A stretch of DNA of 64,000 bases from Trueperaceae bacterium. GTDB taxonomy: Bacteria; Deinococcota; Deinococci; Deinococcales; Trueperaceae. Made by a program: the position numbers and the translations under genes. The notes beneath the pieces are model-generated. The model ran no database searches. It was given only the letters and a program-made list of their open reading frames with translations, and was not told the origin of the DNA. Location of the stretch: contig CP070651.1 of NCBI GenBank assembly GCA_020354625.1, positions 3,811,587-3,875,586 on the forward strand, given 5' to 3'. Shown piece after piece: positions 3 to 62,270 of the stretch; the stretch's first letter is position 1, and the number at the start of each line of letters is the position of its first letter.

Positions 3-1298
3 GCAGTGCTGAGGTGGTCTAGAAACGAGGAAACGGTCGTCGAGACCGGACTCCGGCTAGCCGCTGCCATCTGGCGCTTCTGGGTCGTCCGTGGCCACAT
101 GCGTGAAGGTCGCGATCATCTGACCACACTGCTCGCTTCTCCGCAGGCACAACAGGTAGGACGACCGAGAGCCAAGGCTCTGAACGCCCTCGGCACCCTC
201 CTCTACGAAACCGGTGAGTGGCCCGAGGCGCGCTCCCTTATAGCAGAAAGCCTCGACATCTGGCGTGAGTTGGAGGACCAGCAAGAAATCGCCACCATCC
301 TCAACAACCTCGCCTGGGCAGATGTGAACCTCAGTGACTACCGAGTCGCAAAAGCGCTCTCCCAAGAGGCCTTGGAACTGAATCGGAAACTGGGTCAGGA
401 GCGGGGTGTGGCGGTTTCGCTCAACAACCTCGGTTGGATCGCAGTCTACGAGGGGAACTTCCGAGAAGCCGTCGAACTTTTCGAATCTTGCCTGACACTT
501 AGAGAAAACCAAGCAAATCCACGAGGGATCGCCTATGCGCTCATCAATCTCGCCTGGGCAAAGCGCTTTACAGGAGAACATCGGGAGGCCACGCCGATGG
601 TGGACCGAGCCGAGAACATCCTTCGGCAACTCGGCGATGACCAGATGCTCGGCTGGGCGCTCTACATGAGGGGTGTCATCGCTGCTGATGCCGGAGATAC
701 CGATACGGGTGCTCGCCTGCTCGAAGGCTACCTCGAGCTTTCGCGTAAAACGGCCAGCAAGCTAGGTCTGAAGTACGGCCTTGCCGACCTCGCCGACATC
801 ATGCGTGAAAGGGGTGAGCTAGAACGCGCCACGGAGCTCCTCACAGAGCATATCTCGATCTGTCGGGAGGGTCGAGACAGAAAGTATTACTCCGGTGGCC
901 TCAACAGTCTGGCACGCCTGGTCTATGACAAAGGAGATACTCGACGAGCATGGACACTCTACCGAGAGAGCCTCGAGATCAAACACGAGCTCGGCGATAG
1001 GTACGGGATCATCAAGTGCTTGGAGGGGCTGGCGAGAGTATATACCAGACAGAGCTATCCAGCACGAGCTGTACAGCTTTCGGCCTCAGCAGAACGGTTT
1101 AGGGAGGTGGTCGGTGCCCCGTTACCCGAACGCGACCTCTCCGAGTACCGAGCCTTTCTCGAAAAACTCCGCTCCCTCCTGGGCGACGCTGCTTTCGAAC
1201 AGGCATGGTCGAAGGGTACAAGCCTGACACTCGAACAAGCCGTTGCCCACGCTCTATCGGAAGACGAGATCTTCACTCCTCCTGAAGGCGAGGGATAG
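3..1298 (+). CDS. TPR-repeat C-terminal part of a large regulator/ATPase (5' truncated by window)
   Basis: The reading frame is open to the left edge, so the gene starts outside the window. The visible 430 residues are almost entirely helical TPR-like repeats (about residues 45-390), with recurring 'LNNLAW', 'LNNLGW' and 'LINLAW' helices. This resembles the C-terminal TPR array of LuxR/AfsR-like or adenylate-cyclase-like ATPases (COG3903 type), where an N-terminal DNA-binding or NB-ARC module lies upstream; that part cannot be seen here. The first residues (LRWSRNEE..GLRLAAAIWRFW) match the usual junction between the ATPase module and the TPR array. The stop lies 4 bp before the next start, suggesting an operon with the dehydrogenase. 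Confidence 0.7.
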   Translation, partial: AVLRWSRNEETVVETGLRLAAAIWRFWVVRGHMREGRDHLTTLLASPQAQQVGRPRAKALNALGTLLYETGEWPEARSLIAESLDIWRELEDQQEIATILNNLAWADVNLSDYRVAKALSQEALELNRKLGQERGVAVSLNNLGWIAVYEGNFREAVELFESCLTLRENQANPRGIAYALINLAWAKRFTGEHREATPMVDRAENILRQLGDDQMLGWALYMRGVIAADAGDTDTGARLLEGYLELSRKTASKLGLKYGLADLADIMRERGELERATELLTEHISICREGRDRKYYSGGLNSLARLVYDKGDTRRAWTLYRESLEIKHELGDRYGIIKCLEGLARVYTRQSYPARAVQLSASAERFREVVGAPLPERDLSEYRAFLEKLRSLLGDAAFEQAWSKGTSLTLEQAVAHALSEDEIFTPPEGEG

Positions 1299-1302
1299 TG
1301 TT

Positions 1303-2457
1303 ATGCCATTCGAATTCTCGACAGCGAACCGCATCATCTTCGGGAATGGTGTCGTGGCCCAACTCGGTCAGCTCGCCAGTGAAATTGGTGCTCGCGCGCT
1401 TCTCGTCGGAGGACGAACGCCGAGCCGCACCCAGATCGTCGCGAGCCGGCTCGAGGCCCATTCGGTCGTTCATCACACGGTAACCATCACCCAGGAACCG
1501 ACGGTGAAAGAGATCCTCTCAGGCTTGGAGGAGGCCCGTCAGCAGCGTCCCGACCTCGTCGTCGCCGTAGGGGGTGGAAGCGTTCTCGACGCAGGTAAAG
1601 CCATCGCTGCACTTTTGGCCAACCCGGGAGAGCCCCTCGACTACCTCGAAGTGGTCGGCAGAGGCAAACCGCTGTTACAACCCGCCGTGCCGCTGATCGC
1701 GATCCCGACTACCTCAGGCACCGGGGCCGAAGTGACGCGAAACGCAGTCATCGGTGTGCCTGAAGAGAGAGTCAAAGTGAGCATGAGGAGCTCCTATCTG
1801 CTCCCCCGTATCGCACTCATCGATCCTGAGTTGACCCATAGCCTGCCACCGGCGGCAACGGCCAGCACCGGCTTGGACGCCCTTACCCAGTGTCTAGAGC
1901 CGTTCGTTTCCCGCCAGGCCAACCCCCTCACAGATGCGATCGCTCGAGAAGGTCTCCGGCGTGCGGCTCGTTCCTTGCACCGTGCCTACACCGACGGCAG
2001 CAACGCGACCGCGAGGTACGATATGGCGATCGCCAGCCTCTGTGGCGGCCTCGCCCTGGCCAACTCCAAGCTCGGGGCAGTCCACGGCTTCGCCGGCGTG
2101 CTCGGCGGTATGATCGGCGCGGCGCACGGCAGCATCTGTGCAAGTCTACTGCCGTTTGTCACAGAGGCCAATATCACCGCACTACAGGCGCACGATCCAA
2201 GCTCCGAGGTGCTCGAACGCTTCGACGAGGTCGCCACTCTGCTGACGGGGAACCCCTCTGCACGTGCCCCCGACGCCGTAACCTGGCTTGCCGAACTCTG
2301 CACCACCCTCGACGTATCCTCACTAGGAGCGTTAGGACTAGATTCCAACCAAATCCCAGAGGTGGTGGAAAAAGCTGCACGAGCCAGCAGCATGAAAGGG
2401 AACCCCATCGACTTGAGCACCGAAGAGCTTGAAGGGATCTTGCAACGGGCCTTGTAG
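1303..2457 (+). CDS. Iron-containing alcohol dehydrogenase family protein
   Basis: 384-residue group III (iron-type) alcohol dehydrogenase, expected to oxidise or reduce an alcohol/aldehyde with NAD(P). Visible motifs are the nucleotide-binding GGGSVLDAGK (about 90-99), PTTSGTGAEVT (135-145), and metal-site histidines in AVHG (261) and AAHG (275). The Asp of the metal site is in 'LDALTQCLEP' (D192), but the usual His four residues later is Gln (Q196). Gln also occurs there in some branches of the family. ATG 1303 was chosen because it follows the upstream stop by 4 bp and gives the standard N-terminus; an earlier in-frame start (1243) would overlap the TPR gene. The substrate cannot be read from sequence. 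Confidence 0.85.
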   Translation: MPFEFSTANRIIFGNGVVAQLGQLASEIGARALLVGGRTPSRTQIVASRLEAHSVVHHTVTITQEPTVKEILSGLEEARQQRPDLVVAVGGGSVLDAGKAIAALLANPGEPLDYLEVVGRGKPLLQPAVPLIAIPTTSGTGAEVTRNAVIGVPEERVKVSMRSSYLLPRIALIDPELTHSLPPAATASTGLDALTQCLEPFVSRQANPLTDAIAREGLRRAARSLHRAYTDGSNATARYDMAIASLCGGLALANSKLGAVHGFAGVLGGMIGAAHGSICASLLPFVTEANITALQAHDPSSEVLERFDEVATLLTGNPSARAPDAVTWLAELCTTLDVSSLGALGLDSNQIPEVVEKAARASSMKGNPIDLSTEELEGILQRAL

Positions 2458-2566
2458 GTTTTCGATGCGGGTTTTTTTCTGGCATAGCCAGTAAAGATTG
2501 GTTCTATCTGCGGGTATCGTAAGGCTCATTACAGAAGAGCGGTATGAAGCAGGTAAGGCTTTTCGT

Positions 2567-2728
2567 ATGAACGAAAAGCTGATGCCGATTCCCGTGGTCA
2601 GCATGGCGCTTGGCATGACCATCGGTGGCCTCTTACAGGGGTCGGTGTTGGAAGTGGTTCTCGCTGGGCTGATCGCCTTCATCATCGGCGCGGTTCTCGG
2701 TGGGTTGTTGCAGGCCCTTCGTCGCTAA
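2567..2728 (+). CDS. Small membrane protein, 53 aa
   Basis: The ATG follows AGGTAAGG by a normal distance. Two hydrophobic helices are visible (about 7-26 and 29-48) with a glycine-rich character and a basic C-terminus (QALRR). The family is not recognised. The C-terminal codons and the stop lie inside a perfect 28-bp palindrome (2720-2747). An upstream in-frame GTG (2498) would add 23 hydrophilic residues and has no ribosome site. Confidence 0.5.
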   Translation: MNEKLMPIPVVSMALGMTIGGLLQGSVLEVVLAGLIAFIIGAVLGGLLQALRR

Positions 2729-2747
2729 CCCACGTGGGTTAGCGACG
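2720..2747. terminator. Perfect 28-bp palindrome over the stop codon
   Basis: CGTCGCTAACCCAC is followed directly by its exact reverse complement GTGGGTTAGCGACG. The TAA of the small membrane gene (2726-2728) is in the left arm. No T-run follows, so this is either a factor-assisted terminator/3' stabiliser or a protein site. Confidence 0.55.
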
Positions 2748-2772
2748 ACAGGTCTGGACCGAGCTCACGGCA

Positions 2773-2878
2773 TTAAAGCGGTTGCCATAATTATGTAAGC
2801 AGGTATCATCCAAGAAACGGTCTACAGGACAGGTTTTCACCCACTGGCTTTGTCTATGACCAGATGATACCTGCTTTA
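2773..2878. repeat. Repeat family A, copy 1 (MITE-like, 106 bp)
   Basis: Copy 2 is at 5860-5965; the two differ at only about six positions. Termini are TAAAGC and GCTTTA (inverted), and inside lies a perfect 14-bp inverted repeat, AAGCAGGTATCATC (2797-2810) with GATGATACCTGCTT (2863-2876). No coding capacity is visible. The structure fits a non-autonomous element. Confidence 0.75.
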
Positions 2879-3002
2879 TTAGCCATCCAGAAAGTCATGA
2901 GTGATGATTGCAGCGAAGTTTTTCGCTTGAACTCATCGGCTTTTATCGTGGTCGCGAGAGACAGCTAACCCGGCGGCGCGCCCTCCCCTTTGCACGCGCC
3001 CC

Positions 3003-3034
3003 ACTCATTACCCATCACACATCACTCATCACCC
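3003..3034 (+). repeat. Heptanucleotide repeat ACYCATY
   Basis: Four and a half units in register: ACTCATT, ACCCATC, ACACATC, ACTCATC, ACCC. The same heptamer appears on the opposite strand at 11395-11422. It lies in the otherwise gene-free stretch 2879-3199. Confidence 0.7.
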
Positions 3035-3091
3035 TTTTTCATCCCCTATCGATGTGGCGACGCTTTCGCTTGCCAAACGCATTCTCTATAA

Positions 3092-3130
3092 GGTCACACC
3101 TAGGTCACGGTAGCGCCGCGCTAAAGTCAC
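3092..3130 (+). promoter_or_regulatory. Phased GTCAC direct repeats upstream of a membrane-protein operon
   Basis: GGTCAC at 3092-3097 and 3103-3108, and AGTCAC at 3125-3130. The spacings are 11 and 22 bp, so all three lie on one helical face, 70-108 bp before the 30-codon gene. OmpR/PhoP-type regulators often bind such direct repeats; the regulator here is unknown. Confidence 0.35.
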
Positions 3131-3199
3131 GCCCCCTCTCCTACAGTACAGAGCATAGGCCGGAGCCAGAGAGCTCTTGCCCCCAGAAAGGAGCCGATC

Positions 3200-3292
3200 A
3201 TGAAAGAACGCACGGAAGGTTTGGTCATCGCAACCATGCTGGCCCTCTCCACACTTATCGTAGGAGCCCTGGTTATCCACAGCCTTAGTTAG
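3200..3292 (+). CDS. 30-residue single-span membrane peptide
   Basis: ATG 3200 is preceded by AAAGGAG (3185-3191) at ideal spacing. The peptide is a short charged N-terminus (MKERTEG) and one hydrophobic helix of about 20 residues ending IHSLS. The strong ribosome site and position 63 bp upstream of the histidine-rich membrane protein suggest a real small protein in the same transcript. The family is not recognised. Confidence 0.6.
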   Translation: MKERTEGLVIATMLALSTLIVGALVIHSLS

Positions 3293-3355
3293 CCTCGAAC
3301 CCGGTCCTGCCCTCGGGTCGCGTCCGGTCCTCTGAAGAGACGAGAGGAGAACACC

Positions 3356-3931
3356 ATGAACTTTGTCGTAGCCAAAACGAGCAGCGTTTCACATGAATTC
3401 GGCCACCGCTTACACATCTTCGTCTGGGACGTACTCAACGGCACCGAGCACATCCGCGCCCTCTGGCTCTACATGCTGATCGCCGGCGGCCACTTCTTCG
3501 AACATCTGGTGCAGATTGGTCAAGTCTATCTGCTCGGTTGGGCCCCGAGAGATGCCGGCGGCGTTCTGGGAATGTGGTTCCCGGGTCTGGCGGCCAACGA
3601 GGTCCTCCATATGAGCTACAACTCCTTTCAGCTCACCGGCTTGATTCTGTTGTGGCCTGGGTTCAGACACACCAGACGTGCAAAAATCTGGTGGCAGATC
3701 GCGATCGTCGCTCAGATCTGGCACTTCCTCGAGCACGTGCTTCTGCAGGTCCAGTACCTTACCGGCACCTACCTGTTCGAATCGGTACGCCAGACCAGCC
3801 TGTTGGAGCTATTTTTCCCGCGAGTAGAACTCCACTTCGTCTACAACCTGCTGGCCTTCACCCCGACTGTAATCGCGCTCGTCCTCTACCTGCGTCAGGT
3901 CAAAAACCGAGCGGCAACACCCTCAACCTAA
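3356..3931 (+). CDS. Histidine-rich polytopic membrane protein with two HxxEH motifs
   Basis: 191 residues with GAGAGGAG before the ATG. Four hydrophobic segments are visible (about 36-60, 80-100, 110-131, 158-178). Two contain the same pattern: H46-F-F-E49-H50-L-V-Q53 and H123-F-L-E126-H127-V-L-L-Q131. Further His lie in or near membrane segments (H32, H85, H160). Paired HxxEH helices suggest an intramembrane metal or haem site, but the family is not recognised and no function is claimed. It follows the 30-residue peptide gene. A GC-rich long-loop inverted repeat (3948-4006) follows. Confidence 0.65.
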   Translation: MNFVVAKTSSVSHEFGHRLHIFVWDVLNGTEHIRALWLYMLIAGGHFFEHLVQIGQVYLLGWAPRDAGGVLGMWFPGLAANEVLHMSYNSFQLTGLILLWPGFRHTRRAKIWWQIAIVAQIWHFLEHVLLQVQYLTGTYLFESVRQTSLLELFFPRVELHFVYNLLAFTPTVIALVLYLRQVKNRAATPST

Positions 3932-5859: not shown

Positions 5860-5965
5860 TTAAAGCGGTTGCCAAAATCATGTAAGCAGGTATCATCCAA
5901 GAAACGGGCTACAGGACAGGTTTTTACCCACTGACTTTGTCTATGACCAGATGATACCTGCTTTA
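5860..5965. repeat. Repeat family A, copy 2 (MITE-like, 106 bp)
   Basis: Near-identical to 2773-2878. The 14-bp inverted arms are at 5884-5897 and 5950-5963. Its right end GCTTTA shares the dinucleotide TA (5964-5965) with the left end TAAACC of repeat B, as expected if one element used the other's terminal TA as target. The gene-free stretch 5755-6067 otherwise holds nothing recognisable. Confidence 0.75.
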
Positions 5966-6067
5966 AACCGGCTTTCAGTGCACTTGTCATGCCAATTGAA
6001 CGTTTTTGCTTAACCTCGCTCTGCTCGGGTGATCTTGGCAGTGCCGAGATCACCGAAAGACGGTTTA
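5964..6067. repeat. Repeat family B, copy 1 (MITE-like, 104 bp)
   Basis: Copy 2 is at 11579-11682, of equal length and roughly 92% identical. The ends are inverted over 13 bp with one mismatch (TAAACCGGCTTTC / GAAAGACGGTTTA). An internal 13-bp hairpin lies at 6028-6040 / 6042-6054 with one mismatch. The right end sits exactly at the 3' end of the decayed PIN-toxin gene, so the toxin frame now reads into the element. Confidence 0.75.
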
Positions 6068-11578: not shown

Positions 11579-11682
11579 TAAACCGGCTTTCAGTGAACTT
11601 GTCACACTAACTGAACGCTTTTGCTTAACCTCGCTCTGCTCGGGTGATCTTGGCACTGCCAAGATCACCGAAAGACGGTTTA
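11579..11682. repeat. Repeat family B, copy 2 (MITE-like, 104 bp)
   Basis: Same length and termini as 5964-6067. Here the internal hairpin (11643-11655 / 11657-11669) is a perfect 13-bp stem with a 1-nt centre. It lies just downstream of the nucleoside-hydrolase-like gene's stop. Confidence 0.75.
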
Positions 11683-17992: not shown

Positions 17993-18919
17993 ATGACAGA
18001 CGAAAATAGAGTCGTCAACCACCGGGCAGGAAATGAACCGCTCTTTGGCAATGTGGCGCATTTTATGGGTTTTCCAAGCTATGAGGGTGCCGGCTGCGCC
18101 GCCGAGGCCGTTATCACCGGCGTCCCTTTCGACCTCGCCACCACCGGGCGTCCTGGGGCGAGGCTCGGACCGTGGGCCATCAGGCAAGCCTCGAGCAACC
18201 TGCTCTGGGAAACCGTGCGCTGGCCTTGGGAGTTCGAGCTCACATCGAAGCTCGAAGTTGCCGATGCCGGCGACCTCCAGGTTCCACCGGGGGACGCCAG
18301 CCGGCTCACGGAGCAGCTCGAGCAGCACGCCTCGGCCCTCTTGAGTGCAGGGAAACACCTGGTAACCTTCGGCGGGGACCACTTCATCACCCTGCCGCTG
18401 CTCAGGGCGCACGCCCGCTCGCTCGGGCCATTGGCGCTGATTCACTTCGACGCCCACACCGACAACTACCGTGGCGGGCTTTACGATCACGGTACCTTCC
18501 TGGCCACCGCCCTCCGTGAGGGGTTGATCCTGCCCGAGCGGAGCGTGCAGATCGGCATCCGCACCGCCTACGATAAGCTCCATCATCCGTTTACGGTCTT
18601 GGATGCCCTTCAGGTCGATAAGACCCCTGCAGCCGCACTGGTCCAGACCATCCAAGAGATCACGGCCGGTCAACTCTGCTATCTGAGCTTCGATATCGAC
18701 TGCCTCGACCCCGCCTTCGCTCCGAGCACGGGTACACCTGTGGTCGGCGGCGTGAGCACCACCAAGGCCCTCGAAATCCTGCGGCAACTAACGAGCTGCC
18801 GGCTCGTCGGCATGGACCTGGTCGAAGTAGCACCCGCTACCCAACAGGTCGACGTCACCGCCCTCGCCGCCGCTACCCTGGTGCTCGACTACCTCTACCT
18901 GGTGGCTGCAGGTCGCTAG
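17993..18919 (+). CDS. Ureohydrolase family protein (agmatinase/arginase-like)
   Basis: 308 residues. All manganese motifs are present: 'TFGGDHFITLPL', 'HFDAHTDNY' and 'SFDIDCLDPAFAPSTGTP'. The closing 'GTPVVGG' loop fits agmatinase/guanidinobutyrase rather than arginase. It hydrolyses a guanidino compound to urea and an amine. It is divergent from the pentonate dehydratase and convergent with the RraA-like gene, so an operon partner is not obvious. Confidence 0.85.
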   Translation: MTDENRVVNHRAGNEPLFGNVAHFMGFPSYEGAGCAAEAVITGVPFDLATTGRPGARLGPWAIRQASSNLLWETVRWPWEFELTSKLEVADAGDLQVPPGDASRLTEQLEQHASALLSAGKHLVTFGGDHFITLPLLRAHARSLGPLALIHFDAHTDNYRGGLYDHGTFLATALREGLILPERSVQIGIRTAYDKLHHPFTVLDALQVDKTPAAALVQTIQEITAGQLCYLSFDIDCLDPAFAPSTGTPVVGGVSTTKALEILRQLTSCRLVGMDLVEVAPATQQVDVTALAAATLVLDYLYLVAAGR

Positions 18920-22218: not shown

Positions 22219-23367
22219 ATGAACACCAGCGACCAGCGGATCCTGACCACCCACGTCGGCAGCATGCCCCGCCCCCAGGAAGTGGTGGACATGCTCTTTG
22301 CCGAAGACAAGGGGGATCTCACCGACCGCGAGGCCTATCAGGGCGTCATGAAACGTGCGGTGGCCGAGACCGTCTCCAAGCAGGTAGCAGCCGGCGTCGA
22401 CGTCGTCAGCGACGGCGAGATGAGCAAGATCAGCTACGCCACCTACATTCGGCACCGGCTGAGCGGTTTTGAAATCGGCGAGGTGCCCAGGGCTACTCCC
22501 AAAGACTTGGACGAGTTTCCGGCCTTTCGAGACCGCCTGGCCCAGGCGGGCGGCACCCCCAAGTATCACCGGCCGATCTGCAACGGGCCCATCCACATGG
22601 TCAACAAGGAACCACTCGAGCGAGACATCGCCAACCTCAAGGCCGCGCTCGAGCAGAGCGGCGCTACCGAAGGGTTCATGAACGCGGCTTCGCCGGGTGT
22701 GATCGCCGTGTTCCAACCGAACACCTACTACGACTCCCACGAAGCCTACCTACAGGCCCTGGCTGAAGCGATGAAAGAGGAGTACGAAGCTATCGCGGCG
22801 GCCGGGTTGCTGCTTCAGATCGACTGCCCGGATTTGGCGATGGGGCGACACATCAAGTTCCGAGACATCGACGACGGCGAGTTCTTGCACAATGCCGAGC
22901 TGCAAATCGAGGCGCTCAACTACGCCCTTTCAGACATTCCTGCCGATAGGGTACGGATGCACGTCTGCTGGGGGAACTACGAAGGTCCCCACACCCACGA
23001 CATCCCCTTCAGTAAGATCTTCGACACGGTGATGAAGGCCAAGCCCCAGGCGGTCCTCTTCGAAGCCGCCAACCCCCGGCACGCGCACGAGTGGACGGTG
23101 TGGCGAGACCACGAGGTGCCGCCCGATAAGATCCTCGTCCCCGGCGTGCTCGACACCACCACCAACTTCGTGGAGCACCCCGAGCTGGTGGCTGAACGGA
23201 TCGAGCGGTTCGGGCGCATGGTGGGGCCTGAGCGGGTCATCGCCGGAACCGACTGCGGCTTCGGCACCTTCGCCGGCTTCGGAGCCGTGCATCCCGACAT
23301 CTGCTGGGCCAAGCTCGAGTCCCTGGCGCGCGGGGCTGAGATCGCATCGGAGCGCTTGTTCGCATAA
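22219..23367 (+). CDS. MetE C-terminal-like (cobalamin-independent methionine synthase II family) methyltransferase
   Basis: 382 residues forming a single MetE-type barrel. Motifs are 'TTHVGSMPRP' at the N-terminus, 'QIDCPDLAMGRH', 'HVCWGNYEGPHTHDIP' (the metal His/Cys) and 'AGTDCGFGTFAG'. Stand-alone barrels like this include methyltransferases and epoxyalkane:CoM transferase relatives that act on thiols with zinc. The thiol substrate is unknown. Repeat C copy 1 lies just downstream. Confidence 0.75.
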   Translation: MNTSDQRILTTHVGSMPRPQEVVDMLFAEDKGDLTDREAYQGVMKRAVAETVSKQVAAGVDVVSDGEMSKISYATYIRHRLSGFEIGEVPRATPKDLDEFPAFRDRLAQAGGTPKYHRPICNGPIHMVNKEPLERDIANLKAALEQSGATEGFMNAASPGVIAVFQPNTYYDSHEAYLQALAEAMKEEYEAIAAAGLLLQIDCPDLAMGRHIKFRDIDDGEFLHNAELQIEALNYALSDIPADRVRMHVCWGNYEGPHTHDIPFSKIFDTVMKAKPQAVLFEAANPRHAHEWTVWRDHEVPPDKILVPGVLDTTTNFVEHPELVAERIERFGRMVGPERVIAGTDCGFGTFAGFGAVHPDICWAKLESLARGAEIASERLFA

Positions 23368-23412: not shown

Positions 23413-23540
23413 CTAAGGACCTCCAGAGGTATAACCTCAAACTTAAGGCTACAGAAGCGAGGTTGGACCGCGGCCGTCCGCGGGACGCAGGCTCGGCGCT
23501 TCGCTGACCCAATTCTGCAAACAGTACTCGGCTGTGCTTA
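23413..23540 (-). repeat. Repeat family C, copy 1
   Basis: Matches 52613-52722 in the opposite genomic orientation, including GCACA, 'TTTGCAGAATTGGGTCAGCG', 'GCGTCCCGCGG' and 'CCGCGGTCCAACCTCGC'. This copy carries about 15 extra bases near one end. On the minus strand it begins TTAAGCAC, and its TAA is the stop codon of the SDR gene. It fills the gap between two convergent genes. Confidence 0.75.
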
Positions 23541-24287
23541 AGTCAGCGGCCTGCCACCGTCTACCGGCACGATGCACCCGGTCGAGAAGCCGAGCCCGGT
23601 TGCCACCGCGACCACGGCTCGTGCTACGTCGTCTGCACTGGCCAACCGGCCGAGCGGGGTCCGCTCGCGCTGCGCTTGGCTCCAGCTCGGGTCGAGCTTC
23701 TCGGTGTACTTGCCCTCGACCAGACCCGGGGCCACCGAGACCACCCGGATCGCCGGCGCCAGCGCCCGCCCCAGCGAGCGGGTCATCGAGTCGAGCGCCG
23801 CCTTGGAGGCGCAGTAGGCGACGTTGCTGCCGTTGCCGCTGCGACCGGCAATCGAGGAGATATTGACGACCAAGCCATGACCGGACGCCTCCAGCAAGGG
23901 CTTCATGGCGCGGATCGCCGCAAACGGTCCGCGCCAGTTGACCCGGAAGATCAGGTCGATCAACTCGTCGTCGAGCGCGTCTAAGTCAGCGTGATCGACA
24001 AAGCGCGTAACCCCGGCGTTGTTGACCAGGATATCGAGCCGGCCGTGAACGTCTGCAACCTGCTTCGCCAGGGCCTCTAGCGAACGAGTATCGTCCACGA
24101 CGCCCCTTGCGACGCTATGTCCCTCACCGGGTAGCGATGCCGCCAACGCCTGGGCATCGGCTTCGCTGCTGCGGTAGCACACCACCACCTGCGCCCCGGC
24201 TTCCGCCAACTGGCGCGCGGTGGCGGAGCCGATGCCGCCGGTCGCGCCGGTCACGAGGGCGACCTGCCCGGACAGCGAATGGCTCAC
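23538..24287 (-). CDS. Short-chain dehydrogenase/reductase (FabG-like)
   Basis: 249 residues of classical SDR: cofactor loop [11 protein letters not shown] (14-24), 'NNAGV', and the catalytic Ser in 'ISSIAG' with Y-x-x-x-K in 'AYCASKAA'. The GTG start overlaps the HisD-like stop as GTGA, so it is the last gene of the LacI-controlled operon. The C-terminus ends GRPLT, and its TAA stop is contributed by repeat C. With the HisD-like enzyme it would form a two-step alcohol oxidation, as in dihydroxypropanesulfonate pathways; the substrate here is not known. Confidence 0.8.
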
Positions 24288-51818: not shown

Positions 51819-52616
51819 GTGCTTAGAGATAACACCTTACGGATCCGTTTCGACGAGGTAGCTGATCTCTATGACAGGGCGCGACCCAGCTATCCCGAAG
51901 TGGCTTTCGACACACTCCTGCGCCAAGCCTCTCTCCCCACCGGAGGCAGCGTTCTCGAGGTCGGTTGTGGCACGGGCCAGGCAACACTCCCTCTGGCACG
52001 CCGAGGCGTGCGTATTCTGGCGCTCGAGCTCGGAAAGGATCTCGCCGAAGTAGCTGCCGAGAGGTTGCGCGACTACCCAGACGTTACCGTCGAACATACC
52101 GCCTTTGAAGAGTGGCAGCCAACAAAAGAGGCCTTCGACCTCTTCCTCTCGGCACAAGCCTTCCATTGGATCGAGCCGAGCACCGGGTTGGCCCGGGCAT
52201 CGACAGTGCTCAAACCAGGCGGCACCTTGGCGCTGATCTGGAACCTGGAACGGTCACAGGAGAGCGCTTTTTACCACGCCACCAACCCCATCTACCAACG
52301 CTACGAAGACAGCATGCCACAGGGACCCTCCTTAGACGATTGGGTCTGCATCTATCGCGAGGCGCTCGAGCGGCATCACCGGTTCCACCGCGTCACGCTG
52401 CAGCGCTACGACTGGCAGCAGACCTACGAAAAACAGCAATACCTCGACCTCCTCACCACCTTCTCTTCCACACTCGCCTTGGACTGCGATACCCGAACTC
52501 GCTTTCTCACAGACATGGCAACCGTTATCGATTCCTTCGGCGGAACCGTTCCACGATGCTATTCGACGGCGCTACTGCTGGCCAAACGGTCCAACCCTCC
52601 TCACAATCGGTCCTAA
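51819..52616 (+). CDS. Class I SAM-dependent methyltransferase
   Basis: 265 residues from a GTG start. Motif I 'VLEVGCGTGQATLPLARRG' (about 48-66) and the later 'SAQAFHWIEP' are typical of this superfamily. The TAA stop is the first part of repeat C copy 2. Methylated substrate unknown. Confidence 0.8.
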   Translation: MLRDNTLRIRFDEVADLYDRARPSYPEVAFDTLLRQASLPTGGSVLEVGCGTGQATLPLARRGVRILALELGKDLAEVAAERLRDYPDVTVEHTAFEEWQPTKEAFDLFLSAQAFHWIEPSTGLARASTVLKPGGTLALIWNLERSQESAFYHATNPIYQRYEDSMPQGPSLDDWVCIYREALERHHRFHRVTLQRYDWQQTYEKQQYLDLLTTFSSTLALDCDTRTRFLTDMATVIDSFGGTVPRCYSTALLLAKRSNPPHNRS

Positions 52617-52722
52617 GCACATCCAAGTTGTTTGCAGAATTGGGTCAGCGAAGCGCCGAGCTTGCGTCCCGCGGGCGGCCGCGGTCCAACCTCGCTCCGC
52701 TCGCTTAAGTTTGAGGTCCTTA
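52613..52722 (+). repeat. Repeat family C, copy 2
   Basis: 110 bp with CTAAG at the start and CTTAG at the end. It contains CCGCGG twice and shares 'TTTGCAGAATTGGGTCAGCG' and 'GCGTCCCGCGGGCGGCCG' (with one change) with 23413-23540. The gene's stop codon is its TAA, as in copy 1. It fills the gap between the methyltransferase and LivF-type genes. Confidence 0.75.
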
Positions 52723-52744: not shown

Positions 52745-53473
52745 TCAAAGCCCCAGGTAGGCCTTCTTTACCAAGGGGTTATCCATGAGGTCTACAGAGG
52801 GACCGTCGATCACCAACCTGCCGTTCTCGAGCACGTAGGCACGGTCGCTGACCAAGAGAACCTGTCTGACATTCTGTTCTACCAGCAAGATGGGCAGGCC
52901 CATATCGGCAACGCGGCGAACGACCTGCATCGCCTCTTTGACGAGGAAGGGTGCCAGGCCGAGCGAAGGCTCATCCATGATGAGCATCTTCGGGTCGAGC
53001 ATCAGCGCCCGGGCGATGGCCAACATCTGCTGTTGGCCACCAGATAGAGAACCGGCGGGCTGGCGTCGTTTGCTCACCAGGTCTGGAAACAACTCAAACA
53101 CCCGCTCGAGGTTACGGCTCCTGTTGTGCCGTGCCCTTCGCAAGTAGGCGCCGAGCGAGAGATTCTCCTCGACCGTCAGGTTCGGAAAGAGTTGACGCCC
53201 CATGGGGACGTGGGCCATGCCGAGCCTGGTCATCTGGTGGGGTTTCAAGCCGTTCACCTTCAGCCCATCGAACCCGATCTCTCCGGACCAAGGCGTGATC
53301 ATCCCGCTGATCGCCCGCAAGACGGTAGACTTCCCACTGCCGTTGCCTCCGACCAGACCGACAAGCTCCCCCCGCGCCACCTCGAGACTCACCTCGAAAA
53401 CGACCTGCAACTCACCATAACCGAGGTCGAGCCTATCGACCTCGAGAATCGGTTTTGCTTTGGGAGCGGTCAT
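52745..53473 (-). CDS. livF: Branched-chain amino acid ABC transporter ATPase (LivF type)
   Basis: 242 residues. Walker A 'GGNGSGKST', signature 'LSGGQQQ' and Walker B 'LIMDEPSLGL' are intact. The ATG at 53473 follows CGGAGGCC; upstream in-frame starts would overlap LivG. It is the last gene of the livK-H-M-G-F operon. Confidence 0.9.
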   Translation of the reverse strand: MTAPKAKPILEVDRLDLGYGELQVVFEVSLEVARGELVGLVGGNGSGKSTVLRAISGMITPWSGEIGFDGLKVNGLKPHQMTRLGMAHVPMGRQLFPNLTVEENLSLGAYLRRARHNRSRNLERVFELFPDLVSKRRQPAGSLSGGQQQMLAIARALMLDPKMLIMDEPSLGLAPFLVKEAMQVVRRVADMGLPILLVEQNVRQVLLVSDRAYVLENGRLVIDGPSVDLMDNPLVKKAYLGL

Positions 53474-53498
53474 GAACAAGGCCTCCGATCGCCCATGG

Positions 53499-54233
53499 TC
53501 AACGATCTCCCGGCTCATCGGAATCTCCGAGGTACGCCTCGATGACCTTGGGATCGTTGGTGACTTGCTCGGGGCTCCCCTCGGCGATCCTCTCACCGGA
53601 GGCGAGAACCATGACGTGATCGCACAGCTCCACCACGGCCTTCATGATGTGCTCGACCATCAGCACCGCGAGACCCGATTTCGTCAAGGTACGTACAAAA
53701 CCGATCATCTCGGCCAGAGCAGGGGGGTTGAGCCCAGCCATCAACTCATCCAGGAAGAGCACTTTCGGTTTGAGCGAGAGGGCCTTGGCGAGCTCAAGCC
53801 GTCTACGGCGCGCCAGGTTCAAATCGGCAGACGGTTGGTGGGCTCGATCGGCGATCCCTGCTTGCTCGAGCGCATCCCAGGCAACGCGTTCGGCATCGCT
53901 GCGACGCGCACGATGCAAAAAGGCCGGGATGAGAACGTTCTCGAGCACGGTAAGTTCTTCAAAGGGACGCTCGATCTGAAAAGTACGGCCGATCCCCAAC
54001 CTGGCTCGGACAAAGGCGGGTAGCTGGGTAATATCTTCACCGAAGAGGCTGACTTTCCCTCGGCGCATCGGCGCGTAACCGGTCAGGGCATTGAACAGCG
54101 TGGTCTTCCCTGCGCCGTTGGGCCCGATGAGACCGAAGATCTCCCCTTCGTCCAGGCTCAAGGTGATATCGTTCACCGCGACGAGACCGCCGAACTGCAC
54201 CACGATCCCTTCAGCCTCGAGCGCTGCGTGCAT
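53499..54233 (-). CDS. livG: Branched-chain amino acid ABC transporter ATPase (LivG type)
   Basis: 244 residues. Walker A 'GPNGAGKTT', LivG-type 'RTFQIERPFEEL', Walker B 'VLFLDELMAGL'. The signature LSGG is replaced by 'NLARRRRLELAKAL', an unusual form: the usual LSYG/LPYG Q-loop-distal motif is missing its Ser-Gly-Gly. It overlaps LivM by 23 bp. Confidence 0.85.
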   Translation of the reverse strand: MHAALEAEGIVVQFGGLVAVNDITLSLDEGEIFGLIGPNGAGKTTLFNALTGYAPMRRGKVSLFGEDITQLPAFVRARLGIGRTFQIERPFEELTVLENVLIPAFLHRARRSDAERVAWDALEQAGIADRAHQPSADLNLARRRRLELAKALSLKPKVLFLDELMAGLNPPALAEMIGFVRTLTKSGLAVLMVEHIMKAVVELCDHVMVLASGERIAEGSPEQVTNDPKVIEAYLGDSDEPGDR

Positions 54234-62169: not shown

Positions 62170-62270
62170 TCGAACGCTGTGGTAGAAGTCCGCTAAAAAC
62201 CTCCAAGGATCGCGGCCGCCCTCAGGTCCGTTGCCGCAAATAGTTCTTGGACGTGCTTAGCGTAACGGGC

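Follow-up and report, generated by a model that had tools for sequence, protein, structure and literature searches.

Repeat C, a short repeat present in many copies in a genome of the order Deinococcales, lies in a number of cases exactly on the stop codon of a gene. Very probably, it is a MITE that inserts at YTAR, both ends of which rebuild TAA and whose insertions within genes are lost, so that neither targeting of stop codons nor a terminator role is needed to explain its positions. This reading explains, simply and in quantitative terms, why small elements that target TA build up on stop codons. It also means that a repeat found exactly on a stop codon is, by itself, no evidence for a terminator.

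Repeat C in the window and in the genome

In the window, that is, the whole 64,000-nucleotide stretch of DNA that was analyzed, a sequence-only reading had pointed out two repeats that start with TAAGCAC and whose TAA is the stop codon of the adjoining gene. We confirmed this for both the methyltransferase gene (TAA at 52614-52616) and the short-chain dehydrogenase/reductase (SDR) gene (TAA at 23540-23538), and found a third copy that had been overlooked. The features concerned are as follows.

51819-52616, plus strand: class I SAM methyltransferase gene, 265 aa, terminating in the first TAA of copy 1
52614-52722, plus strand: Repeat C copy 1, 109 bp, MITE-like, with TA at each terminus (TA...TA); minus these TAs, the core is 52616-52720
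52614-52629, plus strand: left terminal inverted repeat of copy 1, TAAGCACATCCAAGTT, containing the methyltransferase stop codon
52640-52689, plus strand: 50-bp centre of copy 1, TTGG...CCAA, in the opposite orientation to that of the commonest long subfamily
52707-52722, minus strand: right terminal inverted repeat of copy 1, TAAGGACCTCAAACTT when read inward
52745-53518, minus strand: ABC transporter ATP-binding ORF (name judged from sequence), convergent with the methyltransferase gene; alternative longer start at 53596
22219-23367, plus strand: convergent neighbor of copy 2
23414-23540, minus strand: Repeat C copy 2, 127 bp, starting TAAGCAC
23538-24287, minus strand: SDR gene, 249 aa, ending in the TAA of copy 2
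62194-62259, minus strand: Repeat C copy 3, 66 bp, with an internal deletion; it lies 24 bp past a gene end and is not in contact with the stop

The element proper is 52614-52722, base 52613 being part of the target motif, and copy 1 has lost its right-arm hairpin. The SDR is full length as judged by its profile match, in which residues 14-245 correspond to positions 1-234 of 236. With up to three mismatches allowed, the core GCAGAATTGGGTCAGCG has two matches in the window, compared with 0.17 expected.

We interpret Repeat C as a MITE, a transposable element that targets TA and is non-autonomous; it constitutes a new family, with behavior of a known kind. In the 4.29-Mb single-scaffold genome, this MITE-like family comprises at least 51 complete copies and at least 17 single ends, as collected by DNA and end-pattern searches and then from 54 genome stretches, a set from which some diverged copies may be absent. 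As expected of MITEs, the elements are short (<200 bp; complete copies span 32-144 bp), non-coding and multicopy, and they carry terminal inverted repeats. These are approximately 16 bp long and imperfect (TAAGCACRTCCAAGTT / TAAGRACCTCCAACTT, alike at 13/16 positions), and the interior carries palindromes. There are several subfamilies as well as internal deletions, the extreme form being two bare ends at genome positions 1231237-1231268. Six copies, including both long window copies, have a 50-bp TTGG...CCAA centre that is inverted relative to that of the commonest long subfamily; the two are identical at 47/50 positions after reverse complementation and at 21/50 when compared directly. These copies are located at genome positions 837626, 1072771, 2138282 and 2810183 and at window positions 23414-23540 and 52614-52722. 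A 16-bp inner palindrome keeps its orientation in copies with the inverted centre.

Trivial short matches aside, Repeat C was absent from the 40 relatives searched, and no orthologous empty site was found, as the relatives are without the element. Viral contigs gave no match. Among named genomes of 84,980 species there was one match, within a 2,962-bp block (genome positions 3553570-3556531) that is 99.3% identical to positions 409-3370 of a Gemmatimonadota MAG (CP070815.1). In both assemblies an N gap adjoins this block, which is probably a scaffolding error or else a recent transfer. Copies at genome positions 64961, 1072907 and 1999340 share 20-50 bp of outer flank beside assembly gaps, and are probably one locus placed repeatedly by scaffolding.

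Target site and the stop codon peak

When the flanks of the complete copies were merged around one TA, the resulting joined sites read YTAR in 48 of 51 cases (CTAG in 13, TTAG in 13, CTAA in 12 and TTAA in 10), and the columns neighboring YTAR were unconserved in the flanks of the 51 copies. Nearly all copies are flanked by TA on both sides, as would fit a duplicated TA. The tetramer is YTAA on the left and TTAR on the right, the identity of Y being independent of that of R. An IS5-type 4-bp duplication of YTAR was rejected, as it calls for the same tetramer on either side. Since the tetramers differ, the duplication is likely TA and not YTAR, and we infer that TA is duplicated on insertion rather than being part of the element. 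A TA target with a CTAG-like preference, which marks IS630-derived MITEs, is found in Repeat C. IS630 itself reportedly prefers the TA in CTAG, to go by the title of a 1991 study by Tenzen and Ohtsubo.

The end-to-stop distances across the genome copies, tabulated as had been proposed with the sequence-only reading, show a sharp peak at zero. Genes were called with a home-made dicodon model, for which long ORFs served as the training set. Exact coincidence with a gene stop is seen for 20 of 119 element ends, and no more than three ends fall at any other distance. This genome-wide peak rules out the alternative that the two window cases were two chance events, though the orientation is mixed, with the left end touching the stop in 8 cases and the right end in 12. 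The same orientation and the convergent setting noted earlier hold for both window copies, each of which has its left end at the stop, but do not extend to the genome, where either end is used and convergent, divergent and tandem gaps all hold copies.

More generally, chance coincidence, or an artifact of ORF calling that arises from an element closing any open frame, is an extremely improbable explanation. A frame that enters the element at the TA in phase is indeed always closed by TAA. However, there are 20 ends at exactly zero, and the host ORFs have the scores of coding sequence (35-334), many of them being full-length known proteins. The genes at stop-site copies are unrelated to each other, and include those for a carboxyltransferase, RecN, RecG, a xylulokinase-like kinase, a PemK-like toxin, an ABC ATPase, a NUDIX protein and an aldo-keto reductase, among others. 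Several of their products match profiles to the last residues (MmdA, 512/512; RecN, 562/563; xylulokinase, 478/481); therefore, these are natural ends and not truncations.

For 15 complete copies at stop sites, the joined, pre-insertion stop codon is TAA in 8 and TAG in 7, and the stop codon after insertion is TAA in 14 and TAG in 1. We propose that the element inserts into the palindrome 5'-YTAR-3' and that TA is duplicated, which would yield Y-TA-[AG...CT]-TA-R. An in-frame TAR is by definition a stop codon, so that a gene offers no in-frame target other than its own stop codon; other insertions within genes would break them and be lost. As both ends of the element start with A after the TA, TAA is rebuilt from either TAA or TAG in either orientation, and the protein is unchanged by the insertion. 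In other words, the element would often sit exactly on stop codons because many TAA and TAG stops contain YTAR and both ends rebuild TAA. The target motif, the regeneration of the stop and the loss of genic insertions are sufficient to account for what is seen. We think it unlikely that the YTAR target and the A-starting ends are an adaptation, in which the ends have evolved to rebuild the stop both ways, making stop codons a safe place to insert. The ends of a second MITE family in this genome (TA followed by AACCGG...) likewise rebuild the stop codon.

Site occupancy and a possible role in termination

Occupancy was counted over the YTAR sites in DNA fetched around the copies. Sites inside genes are occupied in 2 of 816 cases, compared with 40 of 618 elsewhere (p = 3e-13). 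We infer that this reflects selection rather than avoidance, and that selection acts mainly through the removal of genic insertions. Outside genes, the occupied fractions are 14/115 at stop codons (12%), 11/99 at 0-50 bp downstream of a stop (11%) and 26/503 over all intergenic YTARs.

The sharp peak at distance zero could also reflect active targeting, by the transposase or by a cofactor, of stop codons or of the regions where translation terminates, and stop sites are in fact modestly enriched relative to all intergenic YTARs (odds ratio 2.3, p = 0.03), also when promoter-near sites are left out (odds ratio 3.5, p = 0.004). However, this excess is accounted for by the comparison with sites within 50 bp downstream, in which it is gone; those sites are occupied to the same degree as stop codons (p = 0.83). 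The absence of conservation in the flanks past YTAR also speaks against such targeting. In addition, random choice of a YTAR within the occupied gene gaps gives 13.0 expected stop insertions compared with 14 observed (p = 0.38), a test in which regions with a single site are uninformative; regions with both kinds of site contain 10 informative elements, of which 6 are at stops compared with 4.3 expected (p = 0.20). We therefore regard active targeting as very improbable. The earlier suggestion of preferential insertion at stop codons holds indirectly, by way of YTAR (48/51), but given that YTARs at stops and downstream are filled almost alike, stop codons as such are unpreferred.

Another explanation, which we consider improbable, though less so than active targeting, is that Repeat C persists at gene ends because it serves to terminate transcription or to stabilize mRNA 3' ends. 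This would agree with the higher occupancy of sites up to 50 bp past gene ends relative to other intergenic sites (11/99 versus 15/404, p = 0.008), with the strong RNA fold of one compact 113-nt subfamily copy (z = -6.2) and with one covarying pair in the right-arm hairpin (10 sequences with A-U, 8 with G-C). However, raised occupancy near 3' ends is also expected from relaxed constraint, the RNAalifold covariation term is -0.1 kcal/mol, conserved RNA structure is weak, and Rfam gave zero matches for Repeat C. The window copies at stops fold no better than shuffled sequences (z = 0.14, -0.19 and -0.07), and neither contains a terminator-like site, that is, a hairpin followed by a U-rich tract; the sole match of this kind falls outside copy 2. 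The window copies thus resemble neither intrinsic terminators nor SPRITE-like elements. The left and right ends are mixed at stops (8:12), and a bias towards convergent genes is not significant (9/15 occupied stops versus 40/105 unoccupied stops, p = 0.16), with 0.096 copies per YTAR site in convergent, 0.059 in divergent and 0.068 in tandem gaps. Selection for elements that end genes or terminate transcription, which had been offered as the other reading of the window copies, is accordingly unsupported by orientation, gene arrangement, terminator-like sites or folding.

Mobilization and related elements

By analogy, the likeliest mover of Repeat C would be an IS630/Tc1-mariner-type transposase acting in trans, because TA targeting with a CTAG-like preference is the behavior of that group. 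The DDE_3 profile (PF13358) had no match in this genome, and an IS630 transposase gene with matching ends was not found in the assembly, which is gapped. Many 100-N gaps occur at repeats, and the absence of a transposase is therefore weak evidence. The single HTH_32 match in the genome was rejected as the cognate transposase, as it belongs to an IS3-type gene pair, and none of the IS630 loci sampled from 100 relatives had Repeat C ends. We therefore file Repeat C as IS630-like in behavior, rather than as a proven IS630-derived MITE.

The behavior itself is known from RUP, BOX and QMITE (PMC2229807, PMC3049150, PMC5896051), and what is new here is a family-specific, tested explanation. RUP of Streptococcus pneumoniae is an IS630-Spn1-related MITE of approximately 107 bp with many intergenic copies (PMC2229807). 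Repeat C resembles it in size, in its terminal inverted repeats, in having TA at both termini and in being non-coding and intergenic in many copies, the ends having been compared by description only. In contrast to RUP, its target is resolved as YTAR, and an IS630 partner was not found here. BOX, from the same species, supplies the stop codon of 36 CDS (PMC3049150), and is similar to Repeat C in that short repeats give stops to many unrelated genes without evident truncation; however, BOX is modular (boxA/B/C), whereas Repeat C is a single inverted-repeat element that ends in TA and replaces the stop exactly. In Coxiella burnetii, wherever QMITE1 or QMITE2 has inserted into a functional annotated gene, the insertion is at the 3' end, and the overlap can be as short as 1-3 bp; QMITE2 is a hot spot for IS1111 (PMC5896051). 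Insertion at 3' ends and the presence of another IS that hits the element (IS1111 in QMITE2, an IS982-type IS in Repeat C) are common to both systems; the direct repeats of QMITE2 are unique to each copy, whereas the pattern of Repeat C is accounted for by YTAR and a TA on either side. ISY100 of the IS630 family transposes into TA, which is duplicated (PMC2170065); TA is also the target of Repeat C, which is without a transposase. The same test is applicable to RUP, BOX and QMITE, where overlaps with stops have been noted and the cause is not agreed.

An IS that begins TAAGCACATCCAAGTTACGTCGTTTGCTAC was rejected as the autonomous parent, because comparison with a full-length relative, found in a related genome, shows that the IS proper starts ACGTCGTTTGCTA and is IS982-type. 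On this sequence comparison, the IS982-type element is nested in Repeat C ends, at three or four places, rather than being their parent. A relative of it is annotated as IS982-type in an Allomeiothermus silvanus plasmid (NC_014214, match at 18549-18626). Insertions with the ends ACGTCGTTTGCTA are located at genome positions 747640, 1056179, 1495953 and 1255957, at the same point of the Repeat C ends; they follow AAGTT or AACTT, and the IS copies run into assembly gaps. By analogy with IS1111 in QMITE2, Repeat C ends may be a hot spot for this IS.

The second MITE-like family, TAAACCGG...CGGTTTA, is unrelated to Repeat C and is 100-108 bp long. Its copies are as follows.

Window 5964-6067: second-family copy
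Window 11579-11682: second-family copy
Genome 175608, 1458591, 1560118, 2812622 and 3027444: further second-family copies

All seven copies are at YTAR, and one (genome 175608) ends on a gene stop. At genome position 2812724, Repeat C is inserted into the terminal TA of a second-family copy. The window also contains a 106-bp direct repeat (2773-2878 and 5860-5965, 95% identical), relatives of which also adjoin a Repeat C copy at genome position 4014686.
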